Shown here one piece after another: positions 131-45,741 of a stretch of DNA of 64,000 nt. The stretch's first letter is position 1, and each line of letters opens with the position of its first letter. Source of the stretch: Ceratodon purpureus (taxonomy: Eukaryota > Streptophyta > Bryopsida > Pseudoditrichales > Ditrichaceae); assembly GCA_014871385.1 (NCBI GenBank), contig CM026422.1, positions 16,556,153-16,620,152 of the forward strand, read 5' to 3'. A model generated the notes under the pieces. The model did not search any database and was not told where the DNA came from. It saw nothing but the letters and a program-made list of their open reading frames with translations. The position numbers and the translations under genes were made by a program.

Positions 131-3100
131 GGCTTTGCTACTCATTGGAGGCTCGTGGCCTCCTCGGCCAGGGCTCCATGCTACTGCTCCACAGTGGTTT
201 CTGCTCCGAAACGAGTAGCAAAGCCGCAAGCATACAAATGGAATTAAAAAAAAACTTAACCACCAAGCCTCATTGGAGGCTCGCGGCCTCCTCGGCCGGG
301 GCTCCTTGCTACTGCTCCACAGTGGTTTCTGCTCCGAAACGAGTAGCAAAGCCGCAAGCATACAAATGGAATTTAAAAAAAAAAAACCACCAAGCCTCAT
401 TGGAGGCTCGCGGCCTCCTCGGCCGGGGCATCTTGCTACTGCTCCACAGTGGTTTCTGCTCCGAAACGAGTAGCAAAGCCGCAAGCATACAAATGGAATT
501 AAAGAAAATATAAACCACCAAGCCTCATTGGAGGCTCGCGGCCTCCTCGGCCGGGGCTCCTTGCTACTGCTCCACAGTGGTTTCTGCTCCGAAACGAGTA
601 GCAAAGCCGCAAGCATACAAATGAAATTTAAAAAAAAAAAAACCACCAAGCCTCATTGGAGGCTCGCGGCCTCCTCGGCCGGGGCATCTTGCTACTGCTC
701 CACAGTGGTTTCTGCTCCGAAACGAGTAGCAAAGCCGCAAGCATACAAATGAAATTAAAAAAAATATGAACCACCAAGCCTCATTGGAGGCTCGCGGCCT
801 CCTCGGCCGGGGCTCCTTGCTACTGCTCCACAGTGGTTTCTGCTCCGAAACGAGTAGCAAAGCCGCAAGCATACAAATGGAATTAAAAAAAATATGAACC
901 ACCAAGCCTCATTGGAGGCTCGCGGCCTCCTCGGCCGGGGCATCTTGCTACTGCTCCACAGTGGTTTCTGCTCCGAAACGAGTAGCAAAGCCGCAAGCAT
1001 ACAAATGGAATTAAAAAAAAACTTAACCACCAAGCCTCATTGGAGGCTCGCGGCCTCCTCGGCCGGGGCTCCTTGCTACTGCTCCACAGTGGTTTCTGCT
1101 CCGAAACGAGTAGCAAAGCCGCAAGCATACAAATGGAATTAAAAAAAATATAAACCACCAAGCCTCATTGGAGGCTCGCGGCCTCCTCGGCCCGGGCTCC
1201 TTGCTACTGCTCCAGAGTGGTTTCTGCTCCGAAACGAGTAGCAAAGCCGCAAGCATACAAATGGAATTAAAAAAAAACTTAACCACCAAGCCTCATTGGA
1301 GGCTCGCGGCCTCCTCGGCCGGGGCTCCTTGCTACTGCTCCACAGTGGTTTCTGCTCCGAAACGAGTAGCAAAGCCGCAAGCATACAAATGGAATTTAAA
1401 AAAAAAAAACCACCAAGCCTCATTGGAGGCTCGCGGCCTCCTCGGCCGGGGCATCTTGCTACTGCTCCACAGTGGTTTCTGCTCCGAAACGAGTAGCAAA
1501 GCCGCAAGCATACAAATGAAATTTAAAAAAAAAAAAACCACCAAGCCTCATTGGAGGCTCGCGGCCTCCTCGGCCGGGGCATCTTGCTACTGCTCCACAG
1601 TGGTTTCTGCTCCGAAACGAGTAGCAAAGCCGCAAGCATACAAATGAAATTAAAAAAAAAAAACCACCAAGCCTCATTGGAGGCTCGCGGCCTCCTCGGC
1701 CGGGGCTCCTTGCTACTGCTCCACAGTGGTTTCTGCTCCGAAACGAGTAGCAAAGCCGCAAGCATACAAATGGAATTAAAAAAAATATGAACCACCAAGC
1801 CTCATTGGAGGCTCGCGGCCTCCTCGGCCGGGGCATCTTGCTACTGCTCCACAGTGGTTTCTGCTCCGAAACGAGTAGCAAAGCCGCAAGCATACAAATG
1901 GAATTAAAAAAAAACTTAACCACCAAGCCTCATTGGAGGCTCGCGGCCTCCTCGGCCGGGGCTCCTTGCTACTGCTCCACAGTGGTTTCTGCTCCGAAAC
2001 GAGTAGCAAAGCCGCAAGCATACAAATGGAATTAAAAAAAAAAAACCACCAAGCCTCATTGGAGGCTCGCGGCCTCCTCGGCCGGGGCTCCTTGCTACTG
2101 CTCCACAGTGGTTTCTGCTCCGAAACGAGTAGCAAAGCCGCAAGCATACAAATGGAATTAAAGAAAATATAAACCACCAAGCCTCATTGGAGGCTCGCGG
2201 CCTCCTCGGCCGGGGCATCTTGCTACTGCTCCACAGTGGTTTCTGCTCCGAAACGAGTAGCAAAGCCGCAAGCATACAAATGAAATTTAAAAAAAAAAAA
2301 ACCACCAAGCCTCATTGGAGGCTCGCGGCCTCCTCGGCCGGGGCATCTTGCTACTGCTCCACAGTGGTTTCTGCTCCGAAACGAGTAGCAAAGCCGCAAG
2401 CATACAAATGAAATTTTAAAAAAAAAAAACCACCAAGCCTCATTGGAGGCTCGCGGCCTCCTCGGCCGGGGCATCTTGCTACTGCTCCACAGTGGTTTCT
2501 GCTCCGAAACGAGTAGCAAAGCCGCAAGCATACAAATGAAATTTTAAAAAAATATGAACCACCAAGCCTCATTGGAGGCTCGCGGCCTCCTCGGCCGGGG
2601 CATCTTGCTACTGCTCCACAGTGGTTTCTGCTCCGAAACGAGTAGCAAAGCCGCAAGCATACAAATGAAATTTTAAAAAAAAAAAACCACCAAGCCTCAT
2701 TGGAGGCTCGCGGCCTCCTCGGCCGGGGCATCTTGCTACTGCTCCACAGTGGTTTCTGCTCCGAAACGAGTAGCAAAGCCGCAAGCATACAAATGGAATT
2801 AAAAAAAAACTTAACCACCAAGCCTCATTGGAGGCTCGCGGCCTCCTCGGCCGGGGCTCCTTGCTACTGCTCCACAGTGGTTTCTGCTCCGAAACGAGTA
2901 GCAAAGCCGCAAGCATACAAATGGAATTAAAAAAAAACTTATCCACCAAGCCTCATTGGAGGCTCGCGGCCTCCTCGGCCGGGGCTCCTTGCTACTGCTC
3001 CACAGTGGTTTCTGCTCCGAAACGAGTAGCAAAGCCGCAAGCATACAAATGAAATTTAAAAAAAAAAAAACCACCAAGCCTCATTGGAGGCTCGCGGCCT

Positions 3101-6100
3101 CCTCGGCCGGGGCATCTTGCTACTGCTCCACAGTGGTTTCTGCTCCGAAACAAGTAGCAAAGCCGCAAGCATACAAATGAAATTAAAAAAAAAAAACCAC
3201 CAAGCCTCATTGGAGGCTCGCGGCCTCCTCGGCCGGGGCTCCTTGCTACTGCTCCACAGTGGTTTCTGCTCCGAAACGAGTAGCAAAGCCGCAAGCATAC
3301 AAATGGAATTAAAAAAAATATGAACCACCAAGCCTCATTGGAGGCTCGCGGCCTCCTCGGCCGGGGCATCTTGCTACTGCTCCACAGTGGTTTCTGCTCC
3401 GAAACGAGTAGCAAAGCCGCAAGCATACAAATGGAATTAAAAAAAAACTTAACCACCAAGCCTCATTGGAGGCTCGCGGCCTCCTCGGCCGGGGCTCCTT
3501 GCTACTGCTCCACAGTGGTTTCTGCTCCGAAACGAGTAGCAAAGCCGCAAGCATACAAATGGAATTAAAAAAAAAAAACCACCAAGCCTCATTGGAGGCT
3601 CGCGGCCTCCTCGGCCGGGGCTCCTTGCTACTGCTCCACAGTGGTTTCTGCTCCGAAACGAGTAGCAAAGCCGCAAGCATACAAATGGAATTAAAGAAAA
3701 TATAAACCACCAAGCCTCATTGGAGGCTCGCGGCCTCCTCGGCCGGGGCATCTTGCTACTGCTCCACAGTGGTTTCTGCTCCGAAACGAGTAGCAAAGCC
3801 GCAAGCATACAAATGAAATTTAAAAAAAAAAAAACCACCAAGCCTCATTGGAGGCTCGCGGCCTCCTCGGCCGGGGCATCTTGCTACTGCTCCACAGTGG
3901 TTTCTGCTCCGAAACGAGTAGCAAAGCCGCAAGCATACAAATGAAATTTAAAAAAAAAAAAACCACCAAGCCTCATTGGAGGCTCGCGGCCTCCTCGGCC
4001 GGGGCATCTTGCTACTGCTCCACAGTGGTTTCTGCTCCGAAACGAGTAGCAAAGCCGCAAGCATACAAATGAAATTTAAAAAAAAAAAAACCACCAAGCC
4101 TCATTGGAGGCTCGCGGCCTCCTCGGCCGGGGCATCTTGCTACTGCTCCACAGTGGTTTCTGCTCCGAAACGAGTAGCAAAGCCGCAAGCATACAAATGG
4201 AATTAAAAAAAATATGAACCACCAAGCCTCATTGGAGGCTCGCGGCCTCCTCGGCCGGGGCATCTTGCTACTGCTCCACAGTGGTTTCTGCTCCGAAACG
4301 AGTAGCAAAGCCGCAAGCATACAAATGGAATTAAAAAAAAACTTAACCACCAAGCCTCATTGGAGGCTCGCGGCCTCCTCGGCCGGGGCTCCTTGCTACT
4401 GCTCCACAGTGGTTTCTGCTCCGAAACGAGTAGCAAAGCCGCAAGCATACAAATGGAATTAAAAAAAAACTTATCCACCAAGCCTCATTGGAGGCTCGCG
4501 GCCTCCTCGGCCGGGGCTCCTTGCTACTGCTCCACAGTGGTTTCTGCTCCGAAACGAGTAGCAAAGCCGCAAGCATACAAATGAAATTTAAAAAAAAAAA
4601 AACCACCAAGCCTCATTGGAGGCTCGCGGCCTCCTCGGCCGGGGCATCTTGCTACTGCTCCACAGTGGTTTCTGCTCCGAAACAAGTAGCAAAGCCGCAA
4701 GCATACAAATGAAATTAAAAAAAAAAAACCACCAAGCCTCATTGGAGGCTCGCGGCCTCCTCGGCCGGGGCTCCTTGCTACTGCTCCACAGTGGTTTCTG
4801 CTCCGAAACGAGTAGCAAAGCCGCAAGCATACAAATGGAATTAAAAAAAATATGAACCACCAAGCCTCATTGGAGGCTCGCGGCCTCCTCGGCCGGGGCA
4901 TCTTGCTACTGCTCCACAGTGGTTTCTGCTCCGAAACGAGTAGCAAAGCCGCAAGCATACAAATGGAATTAAAAAAAAACTTAACCACCAAGCCTCATTG
5001 GAGGCTCGCGGCCTCCTCGGCCGGGGCTCCTTGCTACTGCTCCACAGTGGTTTCTGCTCCGAAACGAGTAGCAAAGCCGCAAGCATACAAATGGAATTAA
5101 AAAAAATATAAACCACCAAGCCTCATTGGAGGCTCGCGGCCTCCTCGGCCCGGGCTCCTTGCTACTGCTCCAGAGTGGTTTCTGCTCCGAAACGAGTAGC
5201 AAAGCCGCAAGCATACAAATGGAATTAAAGAAAATATAAACCACCAAGCCTCATTGGAGGCTCGCGGCCTCCTCGGCCGGGGCATCTTGCTACTGCTCCA
5301 CAGTGGTTTCTGCTCCGAAACGAGTAGCAAAGCCGCAAGCATACAAATGAAATTTAAAAAAAAAAAAACCACCAAGCCTCATTGGAGGCTCGCGGCCTCC
5401 TCGGCCGGGGCATCTTGCTACTGCTCCACAGTGGTTTCTGCTCCGAAACGAGTAGCAAAGCCGCAAGCATACAAATGGAATTAAAGAAAATATAAACCAC
5501 CAAGCCTCATTGGAGGCTCGCGGCCTCCTCGGCCGGGGCATCTTGCTACTGCTCCACAGTGGTTTCTGCTCCGAAACGAGTAGCAAAGCCGCAAGCATAC
5601 AAATGAAATTTAAAAAAAAAAAAAACCACCAAGCCTCATTGGAGGCTCGCGGCCTCCTCGGCCGGGGCATCTTGCTACTGCTCCACAGTGGTTTCTGCTC
5701 CGAAACGAGTAGCAAAGCCGCAAGCATACAAATGAAATTTTAAAAAAATATGAACCACCAAGCCTCATTGGAGGCTCGCGGCCTCCTCGGCCGGGGCTCC
5801 TTGCTACTGCTCCACAGTGGTTTCTGCTCCGAAACGAGTAGCAAATCCGCAAGCATACAAATGGAATTAAAAAAAATATGAACCACCAAGCCTCATTGGA
5901 GGCTCGCGGCCTCCTCGGCCGGGGCTCCTTGCTACTGCTCCACAGTGGTTTCTGCTCCGAAACGAGTAGCAAAGCCGCAAGCATACAAATGGAATTAAAA
6001 AAAAAAAACCACCAAGCCTCATTGGAGGCTCGCGGCCTCCTCGGCCGGGGCATCTTGCTACTGCTCCACAGTGGTTTCTGCTCCGAAACGAGTAGCAAAG

Positions 6101-6370
6101 CCGCAAGCATACAAATGGAATTAAAGAAAATATAAACCACCAAGCCTCATTGGAGGCTCGCGGCCTCCTCGGCCGGGGCATCTTGCTACTGCTCCACAGT
6201 GGTTTCTGCTCCGAAACGAGTAGCAAAGCCGCAAGCATACAAATGAAATTTTAAAAAAAAAAAACCACCAAGCCTCATTGGAGGCTCGCGGCCTCCTCGG
6301 CCGGGGCATCTTGCTACTGCTCCACAGTGGTTTCTGCTCCGAAACAAGTAGCAAAGCCGCAAGCATACAG
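131..6370. repeat. Satellite array, about 49 units of about 128 bp
   Basis: Forty-nine head-to-tail units repeat every 127-129 bp. I counted them by the recurring GGAGGCTCGCGGCCTCC block, from 147 to 6280. Each unit has a GC-rich core of about 110 bp that is almost invariant, followed by a variable A-tract linker. Variation is concentrated in three places: GGGGCTCC versus GGGGCATC in the core, GGAATT versus GAAATT before the linker, and the linker itself (poly-A, AAACTTA, AAATATGA, AAAGAAAATATA). The first unit (about 142-250) is diverged, and the last is cut off after AAGCATACAG. Long open frames occur on both strands only because the unit lacks stops; the period is not a multiple of three, so they are not genes. 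Known plant satellites of 120-180 bp often form heterochromatin or centromeric domains. Whether this one does is unknown. Confidence 0.97.
1523..5119. repeat. Higher-order repeat within the satellite, 12-unit period
   Basis: The same succession of core and linker variants recurs with a shift of 1,533 then 1,532 bp. Blocks starting near 1551, 3084 and 4616 are essentially identical, including linker lengths. The AACAAGTAGC variant appears in the second and third copies (about 3149 and 4681) but not in the first. Twelve monomers of about 127.7 bp make one period. Such higher-order structure normally arises by unequal exchange of multi-monomer blocks and implies recent homogenisation. The third copy breaks off after about four units. 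Confidence 0.85.
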
Positions 6371-7990: not shown

Positions 7991-8560
7991 CCTCTCACGT
8001 ACAACTATTCTCCTATAACCCTAAGTTGATATACAATCTCAACAACTGACACAGTGTCTGCCCACTTTATATTAAGAATATATTTAACAATTCTATAATT
8101 GAAGCTAGATTTAAAATATCAACCTTTAATTATAAGGAATATATCTAAGTGCACTATAAATTGAAAGATTTGAATCTAGCACTTCAATCATGCTCCTTTT
8201 TATATTCATTGTTTTAAATGTAGAATTAAAATGACGGCTCATTCTAATCTTATAATACATCATGTCAAATAGAATCCGCTCTACGATTCAAATTTTAAAG
8301 TACAGTTCAATAAACCTTACCTCATATACTTAGACCTGCAAAAAGTGGCACTGTAATTAGTTAGCGCCGCCTCTCTTAAATCATACATTCGTTACCTAAC
8401 TGACAGCATCATTCCCCAACTATTCACATGGACATTCCAACCTGAATAAAATGATCATCAACGATGCATCATTCCTCTCACTTTGCTCTCGCGATAGCGC
8501 TTGGCTGATACACTCACTCTCCTCCCTTCTTCCACTAGTATCTCTGAGTTGCCTGCGAAC
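7991..8560. other. Divergent intergenic region of the MULE locus
   Basis: About 570 bp of AT-rich DNA between two head-to-head genes, so it probably carries both promoters. Three pyrimidine-rich or AT-rich blocks are visible but no clear plus-strand TATA box. A possible 3' splice site (TTCTTCCACTAG at about 8527-8538) just before the first in-frame ATG of the transposase gene leaves room for an upstream 5' exon. No other feature is seen. Confidence 0.4.
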
Positions 8561-11500
8561 ATGGGGATGGTCTGTCTGTACGCCCAAGGCATGGGCATCC
8601 CTCTTAGGTTTCGCGTAGATGACAATGGTCTAGCTACGGTGTCCTCTCTTCGCCTCAGTCTCAGATTCCATTTCCGTGAGGATTCCATCAGTATAGAGGA
8701 GGAGATCTTTGATGACGTTACTGCCGAGGTTACCCACACCCTCGGGCAACCTTCAGTGAGAGATGAGAACAACATGTTGCAGTGGAGACTCCTCCCTGGA
8801 TCCTACAGAGTCTATGGTCTTACTGATTCTCTGATGGCTGCATCCACTGAGATCCTCACCCCCCGTCGCTCTTCTACTTGCACAATTCAGACTCCCTTAC
8901 CTCGTGATGTCAAGGTCAAAGTCGAGCCTGGTACCGAGACTTCAGATGTAGAGAAACCTCCTCCGACCGTCATATCTCTGTCCTCTGATGACGAAGTCAG
9001 TCCCGTCAAGTTGGTGCCTAAGGTCCATGCAGATGCTCCTCCTTCCAATGTGTCTCCTCCATTGTCCCAGGTCACAGTTAGCATTGTTCCGCTCCTTCAA
9101 GAGATTGCTAAGACGCGTGGGTCCAAAAACATTTTGAAGAAGATAGACTATTCCACTATTAGACACGAGAGAGTAGAGTACTTGCCTGCGAAGTTTGATG
9201 GTCCGGTTCTTTTTGAGTTGCCCCCAGCTGCTGCAGGATCCTCTAAGCTCGCCGCCAAGTCAATGCAGGGAATGGACAAACGATACGACGGACACTTGTG
9301 GACCAAGACCATCACAACAAACATCAAAAACGACTTCGGACTCTCTTTTCGAAGTTCCACCTGCGTCGGATGGCTGCGGTGCACGAACGAGGAGTGTGAC
9401 TTCCTGAAGCGTGTTCCCAAGATCTTCGAGGTTAACGAGACTGAGTTCGAAGGCTGTACCCTGGAAGCTTTTGTCATCGATCAGCCTCCTCCATCTGACT
9501 CCACGCTAGTGTGCAAGGTATGTAAAGAACCTCCATCATGTGTAGCTACATGCGAGGCTAAGATTTATTATGTTGTGGGCAAACCAAATCAGACTAGAGC
9601 TTGTATTCACATAGGAACACATCATCATCCAGTGAAAGTTGGAGACTACAGAGACTCTAAAGCAGAGATTAGTAGCTTAATAGAAGAGCAGGTAGAGATG
9701 AACAACAAAGCAACAAAGAGCGCCGTTGTCCTGGAGGCGAGCAAACTCCTCATCGGCAGCTACCTTCTACAGCCCGAGGATGCACCACCGAGGAAGCTGA
9801 CGATGGAGGAGCTGGTTCCTGTTCTGGATCGATGCAAAGATATGGCGTCGCCGAACATCCGCAACAAAGTCGCCACCTTCAAAAGATTCAAAAGGTACGG
9901 AATCATGGACGGTATCACCAAGCTCCGTGGTAACAGTCTCTGGGCGTATGTCCAGGAGAATAGGTTTCCTGGTCAGGGATCGATGCGTGACAAAGTCTTC
10001 CTCTTCAAGATGTCGGAGGTTAGGCCGGGAAGTGGTGTCGACTTGGTCAGCCGAATGCAAGCTGGTGGCGACTTGGAGAACGCATGGATCATGTTCGACC
10101 ATGTAAAACGCGTCAAAGACTGGTCGACCATGGCGTGCCATGTGTACGACGCCACGTACTGCCGCGTGATGACAATCGCCACTTGCGACATGCAGTCTGA
10201 GGACACGGACGCCCAGCTCGTCTTCTGGAAAAACCTGAACCTGGTCATGGAGATCAATGGCGTTGCAGCGCCGAACTTCAAGGGGTTCATGGCGGATAAC
10301 GCACAGGCCAATTGGAATGCAGTGCGGATCCTTTACGGCAATGGCAACAAAGAGGACCCAATGGAGGACCGAGAGAGGTCGTGCTTGTTCCACTGGACTC
10401 AGAACATGGTGGCGTATACGCAGAAGCACTTCCCCGAAGAACTCTGGGAACAGCACAAGAAGATGTGCATTCAGTACAAGAATGCGACCAGCATGGCAGA
10501 GGCGGAAACTCTGTACCACGCGTTGCGAGCATGGTGGGCATCCACCGGGGTCGTTGGCGAAAGCGGGCTCATCAAACTCGATCAGTGGCTGTCATTCTGG
10601 CACCACCGCTTCCGCCAATGGGGGGGATTCATGACCGAGGTATTATCTCTGAACTCTGTTTTGATGTTTTTGATACTGGTTTCCTAGCCCTAACCTACAA
10701 AACTCTAATCCGTGAATCTAATGGCACCTACTGTCAAAATTGCAGAAATTCACGGAAGAAGAACTCACAGAGATGCCCACCTGTAACCTCGCCGAAACAG
10801 TTCACAACAAGTGGCTCCAGGCTTCTGGAAACAACGGGAACGACCTCTACGTTGCTACCGTGGACGATTTCGTTCGGGCTTTTCTTCAAGTTGTTAACTA
10901 CTACCAATTCCTCAAAGGTGACGTCGGCGGAACAGGACCGTCCAAGAAGGAACTCAGACTCCGGATGGCTGAACGCAACGCCAAGAAATGGGGAAATCCT
11001 ACACTGCTCGATAAGCCCATGCTCGATATGCCAGGCGCGGATGAGTTCTGCACCCGTCAGCCTATCATGCCAGGAGCGGAAGTCTTCGGTTCACAGAAGC
11101 GAAAAGCCGACGTCCCCATCGGAGCTGACGAGGAGTCTCATCGCCCGGACAAGACAAACTTCTCACGCCCAAGAGGCCCAAGACGTGCCGTCAGGGCTCG
11201 CCCTATGCAGATGCCCGTCATTGTGGAAGACGACTCCGAACACGACACCGAGGTACAATGTACGCAACCTCCTGCCCAGGAAGTTGATTCCCCTTTACCT
11301 TCACCTGTGAACAAGGGCGGCATTCGCCATGTCAACGCGGTTGAAGAAACCAAGGTGGACGTGAAGGAGTGGCACATTTCGAGACTTCACAAACTTTCTG
11401 CGAAGTGCTGCTGGGCCCAGAGAGCTGAAACGAAGAAGAAGTGCACTGAGAGAATCGTCAGGGGGCCCCTTTGCACAGCTGCACCGACCTACACTGGGCT

Positions 11501-12239
11501 GTGGACTAACTATCGCAGGAACACTGTTGAGAAGACAGAGTTCTTCTTCTGCTCCGACGATATTGAGCGCTGCGTGAAAGGCTCTAAGCGCAAGTGGATA
11601 GCGCACTACTCAAAGGACCAGGAATTCCCCTCCATTCCAGAGGTCTGGCCAGTGAAACTAGGTACTAATCTAAAACTGACTGAGATTCTTGCCCTCGAAG
11701 CAGCAGGCTTTCAACTTCCGCCTAAAAAGCCGGTCTCCCCAAGACGCCTCTTCTCCTCTGCCCCGCCCCCTGCGAATCTCAACTCGGTGCCAGTCCCTGC
11801 AGACGCTGACCGCTACCCAGGCAAGAGAGACGGCAAGATGGTGAAGCGCACTGCCACTCGTCCCAATCCGGCGCAGCGACTATCCATGGGCTCCTCCGAG
11901 TCTCTCAAAGCGCGCCTCCGTTCCGTCACCATGATACCTGAGCCGGGCCACGGTTGCATCATTGGGCTGGATTCGGGCGTCGCTCCTCACATCACACGTT
12001 ACCAGATTACCATCAGTTCTTACCCTGGTTGCACTTGCCCAGCATTCAAGAAGACGATGACTACGTTCAAAGGCAGGACTCAGTTCACGTATTGTAAGCA
12101 CCTTTACTACATACTCTTGAAGGTCTGCAACCGTGATCCCGAAGCCGAGCTTTTCATCCATGCGCCTACCTTTAGCTTCAACGAGGTCAAGCTTCTCCTA
12201 GAGAGTGGAATCTTGCGTCACCCCTTGGCGAAGAAGTAG
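8561..12239 (+). CDS. MULE-type transposase-like protein with SWIM zinc finger
   Basis: Model join(8561..10639,10746..12239), 1,190 aa. The frame opens at a TTG at 8501 after an in-frame stop, and the first ATG is at 8561. The 106-bp intron is GT-AG and phase 0. Exon 1 carries a Cys/His-rich region (about residues 268-360, Cys pairs followed by a GTHHHP-type His cluster) like the WRKY-GCM1 fingers of MULE proteins. It then carries the MULE DDE core: D530 in VYDATYC, D579 in FMADNAQ, then a CLFHW block and a candidate Glu near 647-649. Exon 2 ends with a SWIM finger, CxC at 1122/1124 and CxH at 1143/1145. Near the N-terminus a sumoylation consensus (VKVE, K120) sits beside a SUMO-interaction motif (VISLSSDDE, about 137-145). 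There is no stop or frameshift, so it may be an active transposase or a domesticated regulator of FAR1/FHY3 type. No terminal inverted repeats were found around it. Confidence 0.85.
10640..10745 (+). other. Intron of the MULE-like gene
   Basis: A 106-bp intron begins GTATTA after GAG and ends ATTGCAG before AAATTC. Both flanking codons are intact (phase 0), and the intron carries an in-frame stop, so splicing is needed to join the DDE core to the SWIM half. Confidence 0.8.
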
Positions 12240-13030: not shown

Positions 13031-13227
13031 ATCCGTGAAGGAGATGCTTGGCGCCCTTGAAAATCGGATATTCATTCATTTGGAAGTTGCATCTTCCTCA
13101 ACTGAATGAAAAAGGATGAGGGTTGAGCAGAAGTCATTTAGCTTTTAAAATTAAAAAATAATAAAAAAAATTATAAAAGCAAAAAGGAAAAAAAGCAAAA
13201 ATAAATATTAAGGTTGAAAATAATATG
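13031..13227. other. Spacer before the minisatellite
   Basis: No gene visible. AT-rich, with an A/G-rich stretch from about 13146 that grades into the 17-bp array. Confidence 0.4.
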
Positions 13228-13990
13228 AAGGCGACTAAGAAAATGAAAGAGAAAATAAAATGAAAGACAAAATAAAATGAAAGAGAAAATAAAATGAAAG
13301 AGAAAATAAAATGAAAGACAAAATAAAATGAATGAGAAAATAAAATGAATGAGAAAATAAAATGACTGAGAAAATAAAATGAATGAGAAAATAAAATGAC
13401 TGAGAAAATAAAATGAATGAGACAATAAAATGAAAGAGAGAATAAAATGAAAGACAAAATAAAATGAAAGAGAAAATAAAATGAAAAGGAAAATAAAATG
13501 AATGAGAAAATAAAATGAATGAGAAAATAAAATGAATGAGACAATAAAATGAAAGAGAGAATAAAATGAAAGACAAAATAAAATGAAAGAGAAAATAAAA
13601 TGAAAAGGAAAATAAAATGAAAGAGAAATTATAATGAAGGAGACAAGAAAATGAAAGAGAGAATAAAATGAAAGAGAAAATAAAACGAAAGAGAAAAAAA
13701 AATGAATGAGACAATAAAATGAAAGAGAGAATAAAATGAAAGACAAAATAAAATGAAAGAGAAAATAAAATGAAAAGGAAAATAAAATGAAAGATAAATT
13801 ATAATGAAGGAGACAAGAAAATGAAAGAGAGAATAAAATGAAAGAGAAAATAAAATGAAAGAGAAAAAAAAATGAAAGAGAGAATAAAATGAAAGAGAAA
13901 ATAAAAGGAACTAGAAAATAAAATGAAAGAAAAAATAAAATGAAAGAGAGAATAAAATGAAAGAGAAAAGAAAATGAAAGAGAATTAAAG
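13228..13990. repeat. Purine-only minisatellite, 17-bp unit
   Basis: About 45 copies of a 17-bp unit close to GAAAGAGAAAATAAAAT. Point variants include GAAAGAC, GAATGAG, GACTGAG and GAAAAGG, and a second-order block of several units repeats at about 13430, 13550 and 13730. The plus strand is almost entirely A and G apart from one T or two per unit. The minus-strand frames (Phe/Ser/Ile-rich) are artefacts of the repeat. Confidence 0.95.
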
Positions 13991-14420
13991 GAAAGGAAAG
14001 ATAGATAGAGTAATGGAAGTTAATATGAAGAATAAAAGAAATAAACCATGTAGACCATGGCGGATGATTTCTAACAATGTTAAGAAATTGTTACGATATT
14101 AAATGTTACTTTATCCCTCTTAAGAGCTTTAATACCAATACATTTTATGCGGTAATTTGCATATAAATTTGAGGAGATAAAGGGAATTAATGTATGCCTA
14201 AACTAGTTAGAAGGAGCTGGAGCATAGTAATTGGTGCACGTTAAAAAATGAATCATCAAAAAAAAAAGAAAACGAACTACAAATTCAATGAAAACACTGT
14301 AATTATTCCACGGTTATAGGGTCAATAAAATTACTAAAATTAGTATTTTTCCAAAAATGTACTGAGAATATTCGAATCTTCTAAGTTTATATTTTATTTT
14401 TAGTAAAAAAAGTGCTATTT
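13991..14420. other. AT-rich spacer, nothing recognised
   Basis: No coding frame, repeat or RNA gene could be supported between the purine array and the CTC-rich repeat. Confidence 0.4.
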
Positions 14421-14504
14421 TTAGGTTCTGTCCCCCACTCTGTGCTCTCCGCTCTCCAAATCTGCGCTCACCGCTCTCCGCTCTACGCTCTCCGCTCACG
14501 TACA
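14421..14504. repeat. Short CGCTCTC-type tandem repeat
   Basis: Irregular tandem copies of CGCTCTC/CGCTCAC (Ser/Gly/Glu/Arg-rich when read on the minus strand) over about 80 bp. Pyrimidine-rich on the plus strand, the opposite polarity to the purine array 500 bp upstream. Confidence 0.7.
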
Positions 14505-14946
14505 AGCTACGTCCCTTCGAGTCGAAGGAGTCGGAAAGTAAGAGGAATTATCTGCTTGGAGAATTGATTCCTTGGCTTGCCAGTTTGAAAGAATCCAAAC
14601 TCCCCGTGCCCGAGTACTGCCAGAAACACTCCGAATTCGGTCAGCGTCGTCTGTTTCCGGGGGATGAAGCTTATAGTCTCTTCTCTCCACACATTGATTG
14701 CCCTAAACGAAAGAGAACATAGTAGATGTAGAAACTGTTTTAGAGAGCATGCACATGATTCAGTCGGCTGCCCGCCGATGAGATCTTCATGTATTTAGAC
14801 TTTTTCAGTAAATAAAGTTTTCCTCCTTTTAAATATATGAGAACGGAACTCAGTGTCGAGAGTGTGTATTCTGTCGTGGGTGTCTTATTGTGTCTCCATT
14901 TGTACACTAGAGCAAGTATGAATTGAGAGCATGCGATTGATCACCC
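14505..14946. other. Region upstream of the first FCP1-like gene
   Basis: No gene is visible. It contains the first member of the palindrome family (14763-14779) and a possible TATA/initiator region around 14825-14840. A 5' exon of the FCP1-like gene could lie here, because the next coding segment begins with a good splice acceptor. Confidence 0.35.
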
Positions 14947-16077
14947 ATGTTTTCTTGGAATTTGTCCTTCATTTTTCAGGAGTCACTGGAGGATGACGCT
15001 GAAATTGAAGTGCACCAGGGACCTTCCCTTCTTAGTATGCTCTTGGAGGAGTACCCAACATCTCCTGATGGTGATGCTCACAGAGAAGAGTCTCCGGGAG
15101 CGGAAGCCGAGAATGAAAGTGATGGGAAGGACGAGTACGACTATCCAGTCGGCGGGCCGCCGACGCTGTCTGCTGCACATAGCTCTGGCCGGTGTGCGAT
15201 GGCTTCCACCTCGTTCGTCGAGACCAACGTCGCGATCCCGCGCACCGGTTCCCCGCGCGATGATTCCGTCAGTGTCAGCACTGATATTATTGCGCGTAAT
15301 ATTGAGGTACCTCTCCAACGATACTACCTTGTCCTTGACATTAAGGGATTGCTCATCGCGGAGCACCACGGGTATATCGGTGATGACCAGAAGACAAAAA
15401 TTCATATCCGGGCTAGACCAGGACTTCTTTCATTTCTAGAGTTCTGCACGGCGAATTTCGAGGTAGTCTTTTGGTCCACGGTTTCTAAAAAGAATCTCGA
15501 TCGTCACTTCCAGAAGCTGTTAGCCATTCATCCTTTGCTCAGGAGCAATTACAGACGCCTTCCAGGATTCTGGTGTGATATCTCAACAAGGACTAATCCG
15601 AATGGGAAACGGGAGTACTTGTTGAAGCGTCTAGATAGACTTTTCTGCGACACTAGGCTACTGGCTCGATCAGGTGCCACTGTCCAGAATACCCTACTGG
15701 TAGACGACCGCCCTTATAGGAATGTACTTAATCATCCATTTAGCGCTGTCCATCCTAATTCTTTTTTCTCGGACTCTGCAGAGTGCAAAGAACCTCAACC
15801 CACCCCCAATCCCTATTTAACTAGGGTAGTTACACCATTCCTTGTAGGACTTAAGCAGTCTGGATTGGATGTCCAGGAGTATTGTAGGAAGAATTCTAGC
15901 GTGGGGAAGCCACGTCTTTTTCCAGAATCTCGCGAATACCAGAAGTATAGGGAGGTTATTCCTTCTCATGCATGCGGGTTTGACGTCCTGGGTGATCCTG
16001 GATCTTGGTTTGTGAATTTACCTTGTCCTCCGGAGGCCCCTGGTAGTTCCATCATCGGCGGGCAGCCGACTGATTAG
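14947..16077 (+). CDS. FCP1/NIF-domain (HAD-type) protein, catalytic motif degenerate
   Basis: 376 aa if the ATG at 14947 is used. A strong acceptor (TTCATTTTTCAG) at 14979 lets the real exon begin at E12 after an upstream exon. Residues 1-120 are acidic and low complexity. Residues 121-325 match the FCP1/NLI-interacting-factor phosphatase fold: strand LVLDIKGLL (128-136), the RPGLLSFLEF segment, VVFWSTVS (173-180), KREYLLKRL (221-229) and LLVDDRPYRN (250-259), then a PFLVGLKQSGLDVQEY helix. The family's catalytic DxDx(T/V) is here D131-I-K133-G, so the second Asp, the acid/base, is Lys. I infer a pseudophosphatase or a divergent binding protein. Two palindromes of the local family are translated inside it. 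A related but shorter domain follows 310 bp downstream on the same strand. Confidence 0.75.
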   Translation: MFSWNLSFIFQESLEDDAEIEVHQGPSLLSMLLEEYPTSPDGDAHREESPGAEAENESDGKDEYDYPVGGPPTLSAAHSSGRCAMASTSFVETNVAIPRTGSPRDDSVSVSTDIIARNIEVPLQRYYLVLDIKGLLIAEHHGYIGDDQKTKIHIRARPGLLSFLEFCTANFEVVFWSTVSKKNLDRHFQKLLAIHPLLRSNYRRLPGFWCDISTRTNPNGKREYLLKRLDRLFCDTRLLARSGATVQNTLLVDDRPYRNVLNHPFSAVHPNSFFSDSAECKEPQPTPNPYLTRVVTPFLVGLKQSGLDVQEYCRKNSSVGKPRLFPESREYQKYREVIPSHACGFDVLGDPGSWFVNLPCPPEAPGSSIIGGQPTD

Positions 16078-16386
16078 AGCCTATATCAGCGGCGCCACTA
16101 GTATTAAAAATCACATATGATACTCTGCACTCTTTAGTTTAATACGCTAAGACTGTTCCCTTTCTGAACTTCCCTGCACCACACAATTGTTTCCAGTGCT
16201 GCAATTCGGTACTTCTTTTTGTAGATGCATGCATGACATTTCACTTGCTGCACATTTACCTTTGAGGTTTCTTCAATGCATCGTTTTGTCGGCGGGTCGC
16301 CGACGACTTTGAATGTAGTCCATTTCTTTCATATACTTCGTCCTGTTCCTTGATTTCCTTCACTGATTGCATTTCATATTCTTCAG
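16078..16386. other. Spacer or intron between the two FCP1-like domains
   Basis: About 310 bp, T-rich toward the right, ending in a good acceptor (TTCATATTCTTCAG at 16373-16386). It carries palindrome copy four at 16288-16304. It could be the intron or promoter region of the second FCP1-like unit. Confidence 0.5.
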
Positions 16387-17064
16387 GGTTCCTCGTTTTA
16401 TTTCAAATGCCTTCACGGTCCACCTCATCATGTCAAGAAATGTATTGTCCTATGCGTCAATGGCCTTCTCTGCTATGTGGATCCCAGGATAGAGGCTTTG
16501 CCATGGGATACGCATCGGAATGTAGTGAAGCGCCCAAGTTTGAAGAAGCTTTTCGACATGCTTTTCTTGCATTTCCATGTTGGTCTGTGGTCGAAGATGC
16601 CCTTGGGAGAACTGAAGCCTTTACTCACACATATTCTGCCGGCCGGTGTAATGGAGAGGCTGTCCTTCGTGTATAGCAGAAGTGACCTTATCGACCGGGA
16701 GAATTTCCCCTGGAGTTATAAGACGTTAGGTCAAGTTTGCTCCAAGGTACAGTCTAGAAACGTCTGCAAACTAGATCAGGTGCTATTTGTGGATGTTGAC
16801 CCGAGGTCATTGAGGAGGACACCAAACTGTATGTGCTACATTCCTTGGCCTTTTCAAGGTCATCTAAACTTTCCGAACGATGACGGCGTTATACCTAACA
16901 TTGCTACAGATATCCTTCCTCTGGTTTATCCCTTGCACAAGTTCGGATCTGTACCGGAGTATATGGCGCAGGCGTGTAGGCCGGGGCAAGTGCACTGGGC
17001 AATTGAAGCTGCGAGAAAGTTTGGACGTGCACGAGTGGACTGGACTGAAGTTTGCTGGGACTGA
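16387..17064 (+). CDS. Second FCP1-like exon, 5' end missing, catalytic motif lost
   Basis: The open frame begins at the acceptor at 16386 with no in-frame ATG upstream before a stop, so it is a 3' exon or a 5'-truncated copy. Its 225 codons start GSSFYFKC and run to a TGA at 17062. Residues 17-30 read KKCIVLCVNGLLCY. This aligns with the FCP1 DxDx(T/V) strand, but both Asp positions are gone (C23, N25). FHVGLWSKM matches the second HAD motif region, and VLFVDVDPRS the final acidic motif. The rest (YIPWPFQG, then a Trp-rich tail) is shared only in outline with the first gene. No stop or frameshift is seen. Either a non-enzymatic paralogue or a pseudogene that lost its first exon. Confidence 0.6.
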   Translation, partial: GSSFYFKCLHGPPHHVKKCIVLCVNGLLCYVDPRIEALPWDTHRNVVKRPSLKKLFDMLFLHFHVGLWSKMPLGELKPLLTHILPAGVMERLSFVYSRSDLIDRENFPWSYKTLGQVCSKVQSRNVCKLDQVLFVDVDPRSLRRTPNCMCYIPWPFQGHLNFPNDDGVIPNIATDILPLVYPLHKFGSVPEYMAQACRPGQVHWAIEAARKFGRARVDWTEVCWD

Positions 17065-17599
17065 GTTAGGCGGACTTTTTCGCCTCCAACTTGCACTTCT
17101 TCCCTCCTCCTGACCAACAGAACACCTTCCATCGGCTGCCCGCCGACTTGGTCGACCCGTTTGTGCGGCCTTCAAATATATGATTTACTCATTGACCTTA
17201 CGGCTATGCTTTCAGGGAAATAGTTTTCCGAGTAGGTTATAATGTGATAGGATTTACGTCAACTTGGTACATAGTGCTGGGTGTAGACTTAATGTTGTAG
17301 GACTTCATGACTCAAAGTGCTACGGGACTAGTTAGTTTAGCGTGTTCTATTATCGGCGGGTCGCCGACTCTGTATTGTACATTTCATTACTTGAATCAAC
17401 ATGATATTCTTTAAAGTATTCATTGTAACTCTTATTCTGCATTATATGTCGCAATCTTCGGGTTCATATATCCATCACTGGCAAATTCCGCCCATGCACA
17501 TCTCGATGTCTAGTTTTGCATTCCATATTCTGTGGTATTCATGTACAATGACACTGTTCATCTGTGGTCTTCATCCATCGGCGGTCCGCTGAGTTCGCA

Positions 17600-20500
17600 T
17601 TGGTCATTTTTGAATTCTGGACTTTTTTTTGTCCAGAATTACCTAAATATCCCTTCAAAGCATTTGAATCTAGATTGAATACTTTGTTTAAATTTTAAAT
17701 TAAAGATCAATAATTTGATAGATTTTTTTAAAATAATGTAAATAATATTAGAATTATCAATTCCATAAAATTCAATTTTCATGAAATCCTCCAACAATCT
17801 CAAATGAAACCTTATCATTCCTCTTCTACTACAATCTAACAAACTTTATTTCAAAAACCTGAACCCTTCTTTAATCTTCTAAATCCACTTAAATAACACA
17901 TCACCTAACAATCTAATCCCCACACCAAAAAAATTGAGTGATTTATAGCCAATACAAGATGAAGGGTTATAATCGCGGCTACTACTTGATTTTTCACGAT
18001 TTTAGGTTTTTTCATTATATTTCATTAATTTAATAAACTTTGTTGAAACCAAGTCGATGAAAGTATCCACTTTGTAATCCATCTTTTAGAGATATAAAAA
18101 AATCTAGTATATGAGACATCAAATTTGAAACTATACCATTTTAAAGAAATTTTTTAATGATGAATTGAGACCACTTTACATAGTGACTACTATAAGGTTC
18201 TAGTTTGTCATATACATCTATGCTAAATATTTCATAATTTTTTGGTATAACTTTTATTTGATATGAATTTTCTTTGTTTGTTTTGATTTGAAAATCTATT
18301 ATAATTACATAATGGAACCATTAACTATGATAAAATTACTATTTGTAGATAATACGTGTATCTAGCTAAGAAATTTAAGAACTTGTATATTACATTAGTT
18401 ATAGAAAATTAAAAACTCATATATTACATTAGTTATAGTAGCCAAATAGATCATGCCGAGTTGAACTCTATTTCCGTCGTCATAAGTTCAAGCGTTTGGA
18501 GGTCAACAAAGACTTCAATTAAGAGACCACCAAACACTTCTATATCTAATAATTAATTATAATATAATATAGAGTAGATAAGTAAAAGTAAATAAAAAGA
18601 GATAAATTAGAAAAATAATTAAATATTTGCTAAAAAGTTTCTAAATAATCTAGAACAACCAATGGCAAAGACATATGTCTTATCTTTAAATAATAAAACA
18701 AATGTGCAAAGGTAGACAAATGACTTGTCTTTTTTATTATGAATGATAATGAATATATATATTATTTTAAGGAAACTGACTCAGGCATATCTAACATACT
18801 TCATTTGAATTTAATTGAAGTAGACGGAGAAAGGGGAAAAGATGGATAGAGGGTGTTACATATGTTGCACATTTTCTTTGTTTTAATTAAAGAAGTTGGA
18901 GAGTAGGTGATGCATGTGTTATATGTTTTATTGAACTTTAGTTATAGAAAATTGAAAATAAAAGAAGGGGAATTGAAGCTCACATCACAAATTTCATTCA
19001 ACCATAAACTAAACACATGTTTTACCTTCCAATGATTAAATTGATGCATGGAACTAAGACACAAATCTTACTTTCTCAATATTATTACTTGTATTATAGG
19101 ATGACATTGATATTTTTTCTTAATTTTCAGCATATTTCTAAAAAAACCGTTGTGGATGATTTTTTTTTACGACTGCAGTACTTATATTTTGATATAATTT
19201 TACATAATTTTTAAATATATTGAAATTCTTGAAAATACACTTTGTTGGTGTCACATACATCTCAAACAAAACTTTTTTTTTTATATATAAACATTAACCC
19301 CTAAACGCGCCAAGTTTGTTGGATTTGAATCATTTTCAAAGATTTATAATTAAATTGATGACAGAGACGTATTTAGGTCTTGACAATCAAATAAAAGTTA
19401 AAGCTTCATATTTTTAGGTCAAATCTATACGATTGGATTTACTATTATTGTCACTAATTTTTTTCTATAAATTTTGAAACAAAAAATTCAAAAATTCTTC
19501 TAAATTAGGTTATGAAGAGGATATTCATGATTTTTGAGTAAATGTTTATAGAATGGATTTGGAATGTGGTGATCTCACACAAATATTTTTGGAGAATTTT
19601 TTCAAACTAAAATTTCATTATTTTGATGGCCATCTTGAACTAGAAATCAACCCCTAGCTTACATCTTTTTTCAAATTTTTATTGGATTATGCAATAAAGC
19701 AATATCAAATCCAACCATTGATTAGTGAAATAAACTTGTTAACCCCTAAAGTTCTGAGGGTGTATTTCATCAAAATTGCCTGAAAACAGCCCTCTTCAAA
19801 TCAAGGTGAATTTTGCTAAGTTGGGGTCTTAATTAGTACATCTAACCTTAAGATCTTGTAGCTAACTTCTATGTCTACATGTCCACCAAATCTTAGACAC
19901 TCGTTCCTCACCAATTGCAAGATTGTAACATTCAAAGTTGAAAATTAAGTTTTTTTCCCTGCGCAAAAAGGGAACAGCAGAGTTTTGAAGGCCCAAAAAA
20001 CCATTTTTTTGCATTATGGATTTTGGCGGTTTTGATGCACATCAAAGAAGACTGAGTTAGCTAATATCAGTAAAAAAATCATATTCAAAAAAGTTGTGGA
20101 AGGTTGCCAAAAAAATCATTTTCCGCTAGGGGGTATACTGAAATTCACAAACAAAGGCCATTTTTTGACAATGGTAATAGCATATGAAAAAAATTTGGAT
20201 TATAAATCCGAACGGTGGGAACATGCTTTACTGCCTTATCTATACATAGAAATTTTTATTTTTGAAAAATATCAAAATCTCAATTTTTGGTGGAATTTCA
20301 AAGTTTTGTCTTTGGGCAGATTTTGGTAATTTTGGGCAGTTTTGGGCAATTTTGGGCAGAATTTGCTGCATTCACTGTCATTCTCATTGGCTAACTGACT
20401 GCCTTGGAGGAGCTTTTGCGGTTCAGAGGTGAATAACATTTCACTCCGACATCGGAATTGAGAATAAAAAATACCGACACGAAGCTCTCACCAAGGCCTA

Positions 20501-21106: not shown

Positions 21107-24100
21107 TCATCCTCTGAAACATCCCTTCAAAAGCTGGGGTAACCGCATCCGTCCCCTTCGCTCAGAGTTAATAACTGGGTCAGAGTATACTTCCTCAACT
21201 ACTGGGTCGAAATATACATTACATTGAGGAGGACACGATGCTCGCAGTTGATCAAAATCTCCCAAACTCACTCCCCTGCATCCCCTCACATCGAGATCAA
21301 GCATTTTGGTCAAAGGCTCACTACTGGTCAACGACACTAACCCACTGCATCCAACAAGCCTAAGATATCCCAATGCCGGAAACATGATCCCCAGATCTGG
21401 CACTGCTTCCACACCATTGCAGTTCTTGATGGCAAGAAATACCAAACCAGGCACGGGCTCAGAGCTTGTCAACCTCGTCAGGAAGCCACATTCCCAAAGA
21501 AGGAGCCAATTCAAGTGAGGGAAGTTGCTCAGATCGGGCAGCTCCCTCACTGGTAAGTTCCGAATACACAACCTCTCCAACTGCCTGAAGGCTCCAATGC
21601 CCGTCACATCTGCTAAATTGCTGCACCTGCTGAGATCCAATCTTCGAAGGCCAATGAGCCTCTGAAAGTCCCGACGATCCAACTGCGTATTACAATCTTG
21701 GCGCTTGCACGAACTCTCCTCGCCTCGTCCCACGGCCGAATCCCAGCTCCTCAACATGTCACAATTACTAATTATCTGAAGCGATTCCAATCTCGTGAGT
21801 CCTTGCAAGTCTGGCAAGACCTCCAACAGTGTGCATTCATGAATTTCAATTTCCTCCAACGTGCTCAACTCGCTCAAACTTGTCGCATTCTTGAATTCGC
21901 AATCCCTCAGGGTCAATTTTCGCAAACTGGTCAGACCCTCGAAATCAGGCAGATCATCCACACCCTTACAATCCTCGACAAGGAGCGTATGCAACATCGT
22001 CAAGTCGTCTATTGCTATCAATTCTGCTAAACTCCATCCATGGATGCTCAATTCCTGCAGCTTCGTAAGCTGCCGGAGATTTGGCCTCTCCAACACTTCT
22101 CGAAAGTCAGCGACCAATTTCTGCAAGGAAATTAAACTGTCCAAGCCGGGCACTGCCTGCAAACGACGACCACCTAAATCCAGCACACGAAGGTTTTTCA
22201 GCTTCCTCAAATCAGGCAACTTCAATCTAGCTCTACACCAAAATATCTGATCTGAGGCATGAAGTTCCTCCAGTGCCACCAAATCTTCCAGACCTGGCAA
22301 TTCGGTGATCAATTCACACCCATCGATGTCCAATATCCGCATATTTCTCAACTTCCGTAGACTGGGCAACCTCTCAAGCTTCTCACAGCCCCAACAATTA
22401 AGCTCCTCCAGAGCAACCAAGTCACCCACACCAGGGCAGCTACGCAACTGCCTACACCCTCGCAGATTTAACACTCGCAAGTTGGTCAAGTTCAAGCTCA
22501 ACCCTGCCAATGTGGCCGCATTCTCACACTCGTAAAACTTAGCAACGCGCAAGGAAACCATGCTTCTGATATCTGGTAGCTTCCGACCTGGATAACAAAT
22601 CAAGCATAGACACTGCAGGTCTTCAAGACAAGCAATCTGCTTCACAAACTCCTGTGTAGGAGCTGTCACACCCAAAGAATCACAGCCGTAGACGAAATAC
22701 AAGAGGCTCCTTGGCAAACCTTGTATGACAAGGTTATCACCCGATTCAAAGCCCCACACCTCCAAGCTCTTGAGGTGAATGAGTCCTGACAAGTTGATCG
22801 CAACCTTCTTGGACATCCGCCTCTCCAATATTGAAATCTTCAGAACTGTCACGTTGGCAAAGTGACCAAAGTCCGCTTTCTCCAAACTCCTCGGATCATC
22901 ACCCAAGAACGCCATTCGCTTCACATTCTCCCAGCAAGCGCCAGACGGACTCGCTTCAACAAGTTCACTGCTGCAGTTCACTGCCTCGTACATCCACCGA
23001 CGCTGTCCCATCTCCCCACCATGGGTCTCCGCCAAACAAAATGCTCGCCACAAGTCATGCATGCCAATCCGTTCCTTAACTCCGTCACCCACCCTCTCCA
23101 GCAATGATTTTGCCCTCAGCCTCTCCAGCTGCAAATTAACATACAGAGTAACCGAAAGCAGGTCATTCCTAGTCATTGAAATGAGGGTCACATAAACTCA
23201 AAGTATACATGCTTAACCAGCATTCAATAAACTTTAAATTCAGTGCAAACTTAAGAATTCAATATTCTATAGGGCAAGATTCGCTGGTAAGGGCTGAATC
23301 CCAAGCTGCCTGCTGATCTGATACCACCAGAACACGGAAGCTAAGAGTTGTTTTGGATTACAGTCCCAATTCAATGTCACATCCTGCGTCATCAGATCAG
23401 AAGGGAGTATAGAGACCAGCCCATCATTACCAGACCAACAAACTACGTCAAATTCCACTTGCAAGAACCTAGAAATGGTCCTCAAATCTGTATACGTAAT
23501 GATTGCAGAGACGCCACGCCTTTGCTTACAAACTCACCGCTCTTATCACATCATCAACCCTTTGCAACTTATGCACCATGCCAAGCCATTCGAACACGCT
23601 GTAATCACCTTCGTAAAAGTATGAGTCTACATCTGGTAGATATAATGCAACATCCACAAACAACAACTGATCGCCAGGAGACAATGCATCAAAACTCTTC
23701 CTCAAGATGGAGAATATTGGATGATTGTTCTCCCTTGATTGGTTGAAGATGTCTTCGTCAATCCGATCTAATAGCATCACCCACTCATTCAAATTAGCCA
23801 GTCGGGACAATTGACTGCCCAATACAATCAATGCCAATGGATGGTAATGGCAACTCCCACTATCATCCTCCTTCTTAAAATAGCACCGTTGCACACATCG
23901 TAGTATTAACTTCTCATCCACACTATTCCTCAAGTGTGCATTAGATGATTGTGCAAATAAAGACTTGGCTTCTTCTAACAACAACTCGGGCATTTGCATG
24001 CACTTGCTGTCAACTATGTATGGATTCACACGCAATAGCCAATCTTTAGAACGTGCTGTCACCATCACAATGCTTCCGGTTGGAAGCCTCCCAGAGAGGT

Positions 24101-25806
24101 ATGTGAGCACTTCAGCTATTGATCCATCCTGGTCCGACATGTTGTCTAGAGCTAAGAAGATAGGATCTTTGATAATTCCTTCCTTTAGAGCATTTTGTAA
24201 CTGCAACCACAAATGTAAAAAAACATCAATCACCAACTTGGCATCTGTCTTAAAAATTGTTCCTAGAAAGTCTGTAATATATTGATCATATTGGCATTAC
24301 TTTGATGTGTTCACATTACCTGATTTTCATTGAACTCGTTCAATCGTTCCCGGCTAGTATTTGTAAGACTCTTTAGTACTTCTCTGAGCAAGCCTTCCTT
24401 GCTGCCTCGTTCTAATTCCGCATGACATACCTTCCCATGGTATTTTGTAAAGAAATCATTGCACAAAGCTTTGCAAATGGAGGTCTTTCCAATACCTCCC
24501 ATTCCATACAATCCCAAGACACAAACTCCATGAATGGGGTCCTTTCTCAAGGCATCAATTTTGCTTTGAATTATCTAGACAATAAATCACATAAACCAAA
24601 ATGTTAGCATGTATTTTGATATATAACATCACCTGTTACAAACCTAAAAAAGAAGATGAAATATCTCTAAAATATGATCTATTAAACATTTCAATGTTAT
24701 AAATTCAAGTCTAAGACAACCTAAAGAAGACCTAAAGCTTCATTCATGAAACTTACGTGATATGAAGCGACAATTTCATTTAATTCATATAAAATGATTA
24801 AGCAAAAAAATTTAAGCAATCCTACACTTACATTGCATATACGTGACTTTCCTTGAATATGAGAATCTTCCATTTTGATTTCCGCAGGAACCACTTTGCA
24901 TATCTCATCAACAATCTCCTTCACAAGCTTCATTTCACCAAATCCTTCAAACACCACACCATTTAATTTGCGAAGGTACTTCAATGCAGCTTCCCACTTT
25001 CCAACCTGGACTCTCTTAGGATTCTTTCTAGCCAACTCTTGCCAAAATGAAAACCACCCACTACACTTGTCATGGTCTTCAAGATCTTTTGGTGAAGTCC
25101 TAAAAAACACGGGTATGACTTTGAAGTTGGACTTCCCCTTCTCCACTTCATCAAGCACCCTCTCATGCATGGCGACCAACTCCATCATTGGCCACTTTGA
25201 TGTGAAGAACTCATCCGACAAGATGACCACTCCCACATCACATTGCCGGATTGCATCGAAGATATGCCTTGGAAAATCTTCCCCAATTGGTAAGCTCTCT
25301 CGGCGCTTGTCAAAGAAGGGAAACCTGTAGCATCCTTCCAGCTCCATACACAAGTGCTCCACAAAACCTTTCTGAAAACCGCTATGGCTCAAGAAAATCT
25401 TATGTTTAGCTTGTAGTGCAACATCTTCACCATCATCCATGCTCCCACCATCCCTGAAAGTCATCCATGAAGTTGAGAACAAGAAGAGTCTAAGAGGAAC
25501 AGCACTTCAGTAAAAAGATCGCACAATGCCACTTTGATCATCTTCATTCCACAACCGTCATCGATACAGTACAAGAAGAACGAAAGACATTAATTGGCCC
25601 ATGACGTTCTCCTCTCAACTTGGCAGACAGCACAGTAACATGAAAGTCCTAAACTGAATTCCATGGCGTTTAGACAAGTTTGGAAAAGCCACTAAATCCT
25701 TTCCAGTCAAATTATAAGTTGTGTCACATGCTATTAGTTTAATTGCAAAAATCCAAATCACTTACATGTTGCTACTGGACGTGGATGCAACGCTCTGGTG
25801 CTCCAT
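21107..25806 (-). CDS. TIR-NB-ARC-LRR (TNL) immune receptor
   Basis: Model complement(join(21107..23128,23538..24200,24320..24574,24832..25453,25766..25806)), 1,200 aa. All introns are GT-AG. The first exon is 41 bp (MEHQSVASTSSSN) and splices in frame to the TIR exon; the other three junctions are phase 0. TIR, about 30-190: KHKIFLSHSG, the FPFFDKR segment, and WPMMEL, whose E105 is at the position of the NADase glutamate. NB-ARC: P-loop GMGGIGKT (245-252), Walker B-like FLALDN (321-326), VMVTARSKDW sensor, HPLAL in place of GLPLA, and MHD at 550-552. From about 610 the protein is LRR to the end, in the plant C3 style (LEELNCWGCEKLERLP). It is expected to sense pathogen effectors in the cytoplasm and signal through TIR NADase activity. 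The WPMMEL and HPLAL variants resemble bryophyte TNLs. It looks intact. Confidence 0.9.
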
Positions 25807-45726: not shown

Positions 45727-45741
45727 AAACTGTTAATTGAG
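45727..45741. repeat. LINE target-site duplication, left copy
   Basis: AAACTGTTAATTGAG, identical to 48855-48869 on the far side of the LINE poly-A tail. Confidence 0.92.

Follow-up and report, generated by a model that had tools for sequence, protein, structure and literature searches.

Seven GC-rich palindromes lie close together around FCP1-like genes in the moss Ceratodon purpureus, which raises the question of what they belong to and what may read them. The locus is part of a 64-kb stretch of contig CM026422.1 (C2:16556153-16620152), which we call the window. The palindromes sit in what is left of a DNA transposon of ~15.6 kb, in the form of a recent but truncated copy, and we consider it likely that this is a Sola-type element whose dyads are the sites of an element-encoded dimeric binder serving in coating, control and end pairing. 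A scan of the window for TCGGC-N5-GCCGA found six exact dyads and one with a single arm mismatch, spanning 14764-17592 (numbered by the first base of the 15-mer: 14764, 15149, 16055, 16289, 17132, 17353 and 17578), which bears out the seven clustered palindromes of an earlier note on this DNA; outside the cluster, the single further match with at most one mismatch is at 21725. At this tolerance the eight matches compare with a shuffle mean of 0.63, and none of 100 shuffles reached eight. When 14401-17650 was shuffled 2000 times with dinucleotides preserved, the exact dyad occurred 0.0025 times on average and at most once, versus six observed, and any palindrome with an arm of 5 and a gap of 5 recurred no more than twice, again versus six. 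The 17-bp site described there is real as a palindrome, and its better form is RTCGGC-K-G-N-C-M-GCCGAY. Its varying centre also stands in that several centres occur, but this is in part a strand effect, TGCCC being GGGCA reversed. Positions 14760-14781 are the exact reverse complement of 16052-16073.

The entire segment that carries the cluster is transposon. Four copies of the element were read: two full copies (A and B), the window fragment and one miniature. Window positions 14514-17655 align to bp 3142-1 of copy A with 99.0% identity over 3142 bp, the edges of the fragment being the element end at 17655 and a truncation at 14513/14514; no other segment of element DNA turned up when the entire window was searched. 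Copy A (C1:1251698-1267319, 15,622 bp) and copy B (15,748 bp) are flanked by perfect 4-bp target duplications, TTAT/TTAT and ATAA/ATAA, respectively. The inverted ends of both copies begin AAGGG(A/G)TATTTA, and in the terminal inverted repeats of copy A 26 of 29 end bases agree. The two copies have two long blocks in common, with 96.7 and 97.1% identity, and differ by eight indels, one of which is the exact 19-bp removal of a dyad while another adds two dyad-bearing repeats to a central array. Over the 3.1 kb of the left end, the 19-bp gap (L026, about 6566; window 16289) is the sole internal indel when A, B and the window copy are compared. A 381-bp miniature derivative (L029:5498-5878) has both inverted ends and a GTAT/GTAT duplication, and it retains a single exact dyad, at bp 59; a 4-bp target duplication is therefore present in all three intact copies read (A, B and the miniature). 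Towards the opposite end of the miniature there may be a degraded dyad with a gap of 6, which was noticed by eye only and was not listed by the scan.

The right half of the element contains a 678-aa open frame with a DUF7869 domain (Pfam, E 4.5e-44), the probable transposase. Sixty-eight such frames were scored, the best 68 of 1305 first-look candidates and hence a lower bound behind which diverged copies may be hidden: all are 99-100% identical, 58 of the 68 have no stop, and 17 lie on contig C6. Because the scored transposase frames are identical to this degree, their sequences suggest that the element is young. A full copy presumably lies just upstream of the window, since a DUF7869 frame is found at C2:16539586-16541532 (-). 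A host FCP1-gene regulatory cluster was rejected as an explanation, because 14514-17655 matches the left end of the element throughout, and sites and frames are parts of one transposon.

Copy A contains 29 dyads of the form TCGGCKG-N-CMGCCGA at up to two mismatches, from bp 64 to bp 15242. When the 29 sites are read on both strands (58 rows), each arm position is invariant or kept in 56 of 58 rows, G at position 6 and C at position 8 are found in 52 of 58, position 5 is G/T and position 9 A/C, and position 7 is free. The spacing is fixed: in A, TCGGC..GCCGA occurs 25 times at gap 5 and once at gap 19, and not at gaps 0-4, 6-18 or 20-24. Half-sites number 59 in A, compared with a shuffle mean of 3.4 (maximum 12, n=300) and with two in 14.4 kb of flanks. 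Eight of the 11 lone half-sites in A form four pairs that are 21-22 bp apart, about two helical turns, all within bp 8476-9416. The halves of full-motif sites are mostly unlike, one being TCGGCGG and the other TCGGCTG: this holds for 18 of the 20 such sites of A (binomial P about 0.0002) and 21 of the 24 of B (P about 0.0001), with tandem relatedness ignored. In the remaining five exact-arm sites of A, positions 5/9 are complementary and 6/8 are mismatched; the inner pair is non-Watson-Crick in 23 of the 25 exact-arm sites of A, and long perfect palindromes make up 2 of 25. Judged by its sequence, a half-site TCGGCKG followed by one free base and an inverted half-site is the form of a dimer binding site. 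Among the candidates of the earlier note, binding sites for a dimeric regulator fit best, with fixed spacing, a conserved G and C round a free base, and half-site pairs at 21-22 bp.

The full-genome search for the motif, which the earlier note had proposed as a check, covered 362 Mb in 151 contigs, with the dyad reversed but not complemented as the control pattern. Exact dyads were found 4737 times, versus 51 for the reversed control, and the refined form TCGGCKGNCMGCCGA at 3644 places, versus none for the control. Among the first 50 of these 3644 places, 20 are in copy A and 24 in copy B, five adjoin a third DUF7869 frame at C1:5720556 and one is in a miniature at C1:2805556; the remaining 3594 presumably also lie within element copies. 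The 15-mers of the motif, in six spellings, were not found in the open-licence papers searched. The exact 17-mer TCGGCGGGTCGCCGACT occurs in seven stretches of viral contigs, all with 64-71% GC, and these were taken as chance matches.

Are the sites kept by selection, and where do they lie? Between A and B, the arms and inner G/C (12 positions per site) differ at 2 of 337 positions versus 380 of 15577 overall (P about 0.011, uncorrected), and the three variable positions per site differ at 5 of 84 (P about 0.058); the dyad deleted in B was left out of these counts. Across A, B and the window copy, the seven left-end sites (3.1 kb) show no core substitution besides the deletion in B. The 3419 bp counted as conserved coding sequence (all of the DUF7869 frame, two stretches matched by Pfam NIF and a further NIF stretch delimited by eye) contain none of the 29 sites of A (P about 0.0008, rising to 0.003 when tandem copies are counted once). 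Judged by eye, at least three element sites (5196, 6659 and 11316) sit between GT and AG splice-like borders, and site 13392 adjoins the stop codon of the transposase. The central array between the divergent gene sets has five dyads in A and seven in B; the densest cluster in A, between these gene sets, is five dyads in 276 bp (bp 8163-8438). Three of the 29 sites are in the first 600 bp of A and two in the last 600 bp.

The dyads are probably docking sites for one of the element's own proteins. Each would be recognised by a dimer of a sequence-specific DNA-binding protein that the element itself encodes (the predicted binder), with a single monomer contacting each TCGGCKG half-site. The dyads would be kept in apparent introns, untranslated regions, intergenic DNA, protein linkers and the tandem array between the divergent gene sets, and from there the protein may coat the element and switch its genes on or off. 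By analogy, the bound protein might keep the element accessible against host silencing. The end-most sites would probably also help to assemble the two ends for transposition, and the FCP1-like proteins may be cargo or accessory factors. If the dyads bind an element-encoded protein, the element would be a large, recently active transposon with one palindromic address over its full length. As far as the portions of the literature compared here go, this would then be a second, independent case, beyond Arabidopsis, of transposons recruiting their own protein and perhaps escaping silencing.

Several points weigh against such an element-encoded binder. No binder was recognised when the element frames were scanned against Pfam, where only DUF7869 and NIF reach the cut-off, and an NCBIfam scan of five queries gave no match. 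The conservation test is modest at its uncorrected P of about 0.011, and both core differences are in the tandem array. Copy B is without one entire dyad, so the sites are not all essential. The intervals of the avoidance test were picked after the sites were known, one of the four by eye, and uniform placement was assumed. Several sites lie inside open frames, although outside the conserved coding stretches, where they encode peptides such as VGGQPT, VGCPPT and RRPAD; that these are linkers was judged by eye.

VANDALs are Mutator-like transposons. In the portions of the papers compared here, VANC21 of Arabidopsis is described as a transposon-encoded protein whose 9-base target motif recurs in the non-coding parts of its element; its binding causes methylation loss, and its targets evolve by tandem repeats (PMC5735166). 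The present element would be alike in that a short motif is repeated in apparently non-coding DNA, including apparent introns, with gain and loss by tandem repeats; it is unlike in that the motif of VANC21, YAGTATTAY, runs in a single orientation and is no dyad (PMC5735166). A second difference is that no VANC-like protein was recognised in our element. Membership in the VANDAL or Mutator-like group was rejected, with 4-bp duplications here versus the 7-12 bp described (PMC10741241). The spread over the whole length and the sites between divergent genes favour the VANC-type precedent. A bolder and less likely reading is an independently evolved VANC-like system: a very young Sola-like element with the dyad in introns, at gene borders and in a promoter, whose self-encoded dimer would coat the 15.6 kb against silencing. 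Such a system would differ from the Arabidopsis one in its transposase and in the palindromic form of its code.

It is also possible, although we doubt it, that the sites serve transposition only, TNPA-like sites pairing the element ends and repressing transcription within the element, and that they play no part in anti-silencing. CACTA elements are known to contain repeated motifs to which an element protein binds (PMC2613891): En/Spm and Tgm, as far as the portion of the source compared describes them, resemble the present element in having numerous copies, inverted as well as direct, of a short motif specific to the element, which an element protein is held to bind. The end-most site lies at bp 64 from the left end, and the miniature retains an exact site at bp 59 together with what, judged by eye, may be a degraded one towards the opposite end; the terminal site of the miniature favours a share for a TNPA-type role. 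However, the sites here run over the whole 15.6 kb, with 5 of 29 within 600 bp of the ends and the densest cluster internal, whereas the TNPA-bound repeats of CACTA elements are described as subterminal. CACTA membership was rejected, as the ends AAGGG.. and 4-bp duplications found here contrast with the CACTA termini and 3-bp duplication given in the same portion of the source (PMC2613891). By analogy, the element may work like a VANDAL/VANC or a TNPA system, being a member of neither transposon family.

The element appears to be a large Sola-type transposon; the features tested fit, and 'Sola-type' is a working name. In the portions of the sources compared, Sola elements are described as making 4-bp duplications, as encoding a DDD transposase, as growing beyond 15 kb in some cases and as occurring in moss (PMC10741241, PMC9033089). 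Members of the superfamily, Physcomitrella Sola1 among them, are alike in 4-bp duplications, inverted ends, size and occurrence in moss (PMC10741241, PMC9033089, PMC3627910), but dyads along the full length and the putative FCP1-like cargo seen here are absent from the Sola descriptions compared. Among the titles and abstract openings listed from the open-licence papers searched, none dealt with this element.

Rather than a protein of the element, a host transcription or silencing factor could read the dyad, and the element would exploit, or be marked by, that factor. We regard this as unlikely. The half-site contains GCCGAC, which we take to resemble the plant DRE/CRT core, and TCGG-N7-CCGA presumably resembles paired auxin-response half-sites; however, the full TGTCGG is found in only one of the seven window sites (16289), and of the first 50 places of the refined motif, 44 are in the two full copies, five by the third DUF7869 frame and one in a miniature.

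The earlier note had also named RNA hairpins, whose role would be at the transcript level, be it in splicing, in stability or in generating small RNAs. In a 23-nt context, 27 of the 29 sites can indeed fold with 5 bp or more in the stem, which in some reaches 7-9 bp, and several sites lie in apparent introns or after stop codons. The finer make-up of the sites nevertheless makes this reading improbable: the inner positions are non-complementary in 18 of the 20 full-motif sites of A and in 21 of the 24 of B, and the five other exact-arm sites of A have G-T or A-C at the next pair, which RNA could tolerate on one strand. With 23 of 25 inner pairs non-Watson-Crick, the rarity of long perfect palindromes speaks against hairpins. 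The G and C beside the central N, kept in 52 of 58 rows, are needless for a loop, four sites with a mutated arm are uncompensated, and the regularly spaced lone half-sites form no hairpin. Very improbable, finally, is that the dyad itself is a tiny mobile or duplicating element multiplied inside the transposon, the 'tiny hairpin transposon' of the earlier note: its small foothold is that one of the eight indels between A and B is the exact 19-bp presence or absence of a whole dyad (16289), but this gap is edged by a 2-bp CG repeat only, as in a slippage deletion at a hairpin, site 16289 is kept by both the window copy and A, the other 28 sites of A recur in B, which adds two array copies, and the first 50 genomic places lie in the two full copies, beside a third DUF7869 frame and in a miniature.

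On the opposite strand to the transposase, the left half of the element carries three FCP1-like frames and three long frames with no match above the cut-off. The FCP1-like frames are Pfam NIF matches, the third via its N-terminal part only and one barely over the cut-off; in the window, the two FCP1-like genes reported earlier are present as two frames and are joined by the C-terminal end of a third. The 678-aa DUF7869 frame differs between A and B by 16 synonymous and six nonsynonymous codon changes. The candidate acidic motifs HDKMD, QLDN and GHTHEDID, seen by eye in the DUF7869 protein, could supply a DDD triad. The N-terminus of the transposase gave a sub-threshold match to a PcrA/UvrD tudor domain (21 bits versus a cut-off of 23.9); a CACTA TNPA-type domain there, considered by eye, was set aside as lacking Pfam support. 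A ParB/parS-like partition system was likewise set aside, as the GGQHTFEACREL motif (by eye, L024:3214-4821:-) came with no ParB match in Pfam, PDB or NCBIfam. The non-plant collections, which carry little weight here, held no relatives of the FCP1-like proteins in viral and prokaryotic contigs, no DUF7869 in prokaryotic contigs and no relative of the ParB-like protein (by eye) in viral contigs. DUF7869 and transposase were not found together in any of the open-licence papers searched. The features of the element fragment in the window are collected in the table.

Table. Parts of the transposon fragment and its dyads, in window coordinates
Feature	Position	Strand	Remarks
Truncated left end (bp 1-3142) of ~15.6-kb transposon	14514..17655	-	99.0% identity to copy A
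Third FCP1-like frame, C-terminal part	14514..14722	+	cut by truncation
Dyad TCGGC-TGCCC-GCCGA	14764..14778		3' of stop of truncated third FCP1-like frame
FCP1-like (NIF, PF03031) open frame	14941..16077	+	378 aa stop to stop; E 1.8e-10
Dyad TCGGC-GGGCC-GCCGA	15149..15163		inside open frame, upstream of FCP1 domain
Dyad TCGGC-GGGCA-GCCGA	16055..16069		at end of second FCP1-like frame
Dyad TCGGC-GGGTC-GCCGA	16289..16303		between FCP1-like frames; missing from copy B (exact 19-bp gap)
FCP1-like (NIF, PF03031) open frame	16354..17064	+	236 aa stop to stop; E 1.3e-4, 22.1 bits versus cut-off 21.8
Dyad TCGGC-TGCCC-GCCGA	17132..17146		downstream of last FCP1-like frame
Dyad TCGGC-GGGTC-GCCGA	17353..17367		
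Dyad TCGGC-GGTCC-GCTGA	17578..17592		one arm mismatch; starts at element bp 64
Subterminal inverted repeat AATTCTGGAC-T8-GTCCAGAATT	17613..17640		arms 17613-17622 and 17631-17640; read from sequence
Left terminal inverted repeat AAGGGATATTTAGGTAATTCTGGAC	17631..17655	-	element ends at 17655

Elsewhere in the window, 141-6369 is taken up by a satellite array in which a 128-bp unit is repeated in tandem about 49 times (96% matches), and an AT-rich tandem array at 13216-13984, with a 17-bp unit present in about 45 copies, lies upstream of the element fragment. Between them, at 8498-12239, are two long open frames (729 and 505 aa) with no Pfam match, which by eye look like a transposase-like gene with a zinc-finger-like tail. 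An apparent resistance-type gene with TIR domain and leucine-rich-repeat frames is found at 21107-25506 (-). A reverse transcriptase fragment at 45741-46262 (RVT_1, E 4.7e-16) is probably a retroelement remnant, and a single 5S rRNA match at 56871-57001 (-), with 52.9 bits, is possibly a stray or degenerate copy.

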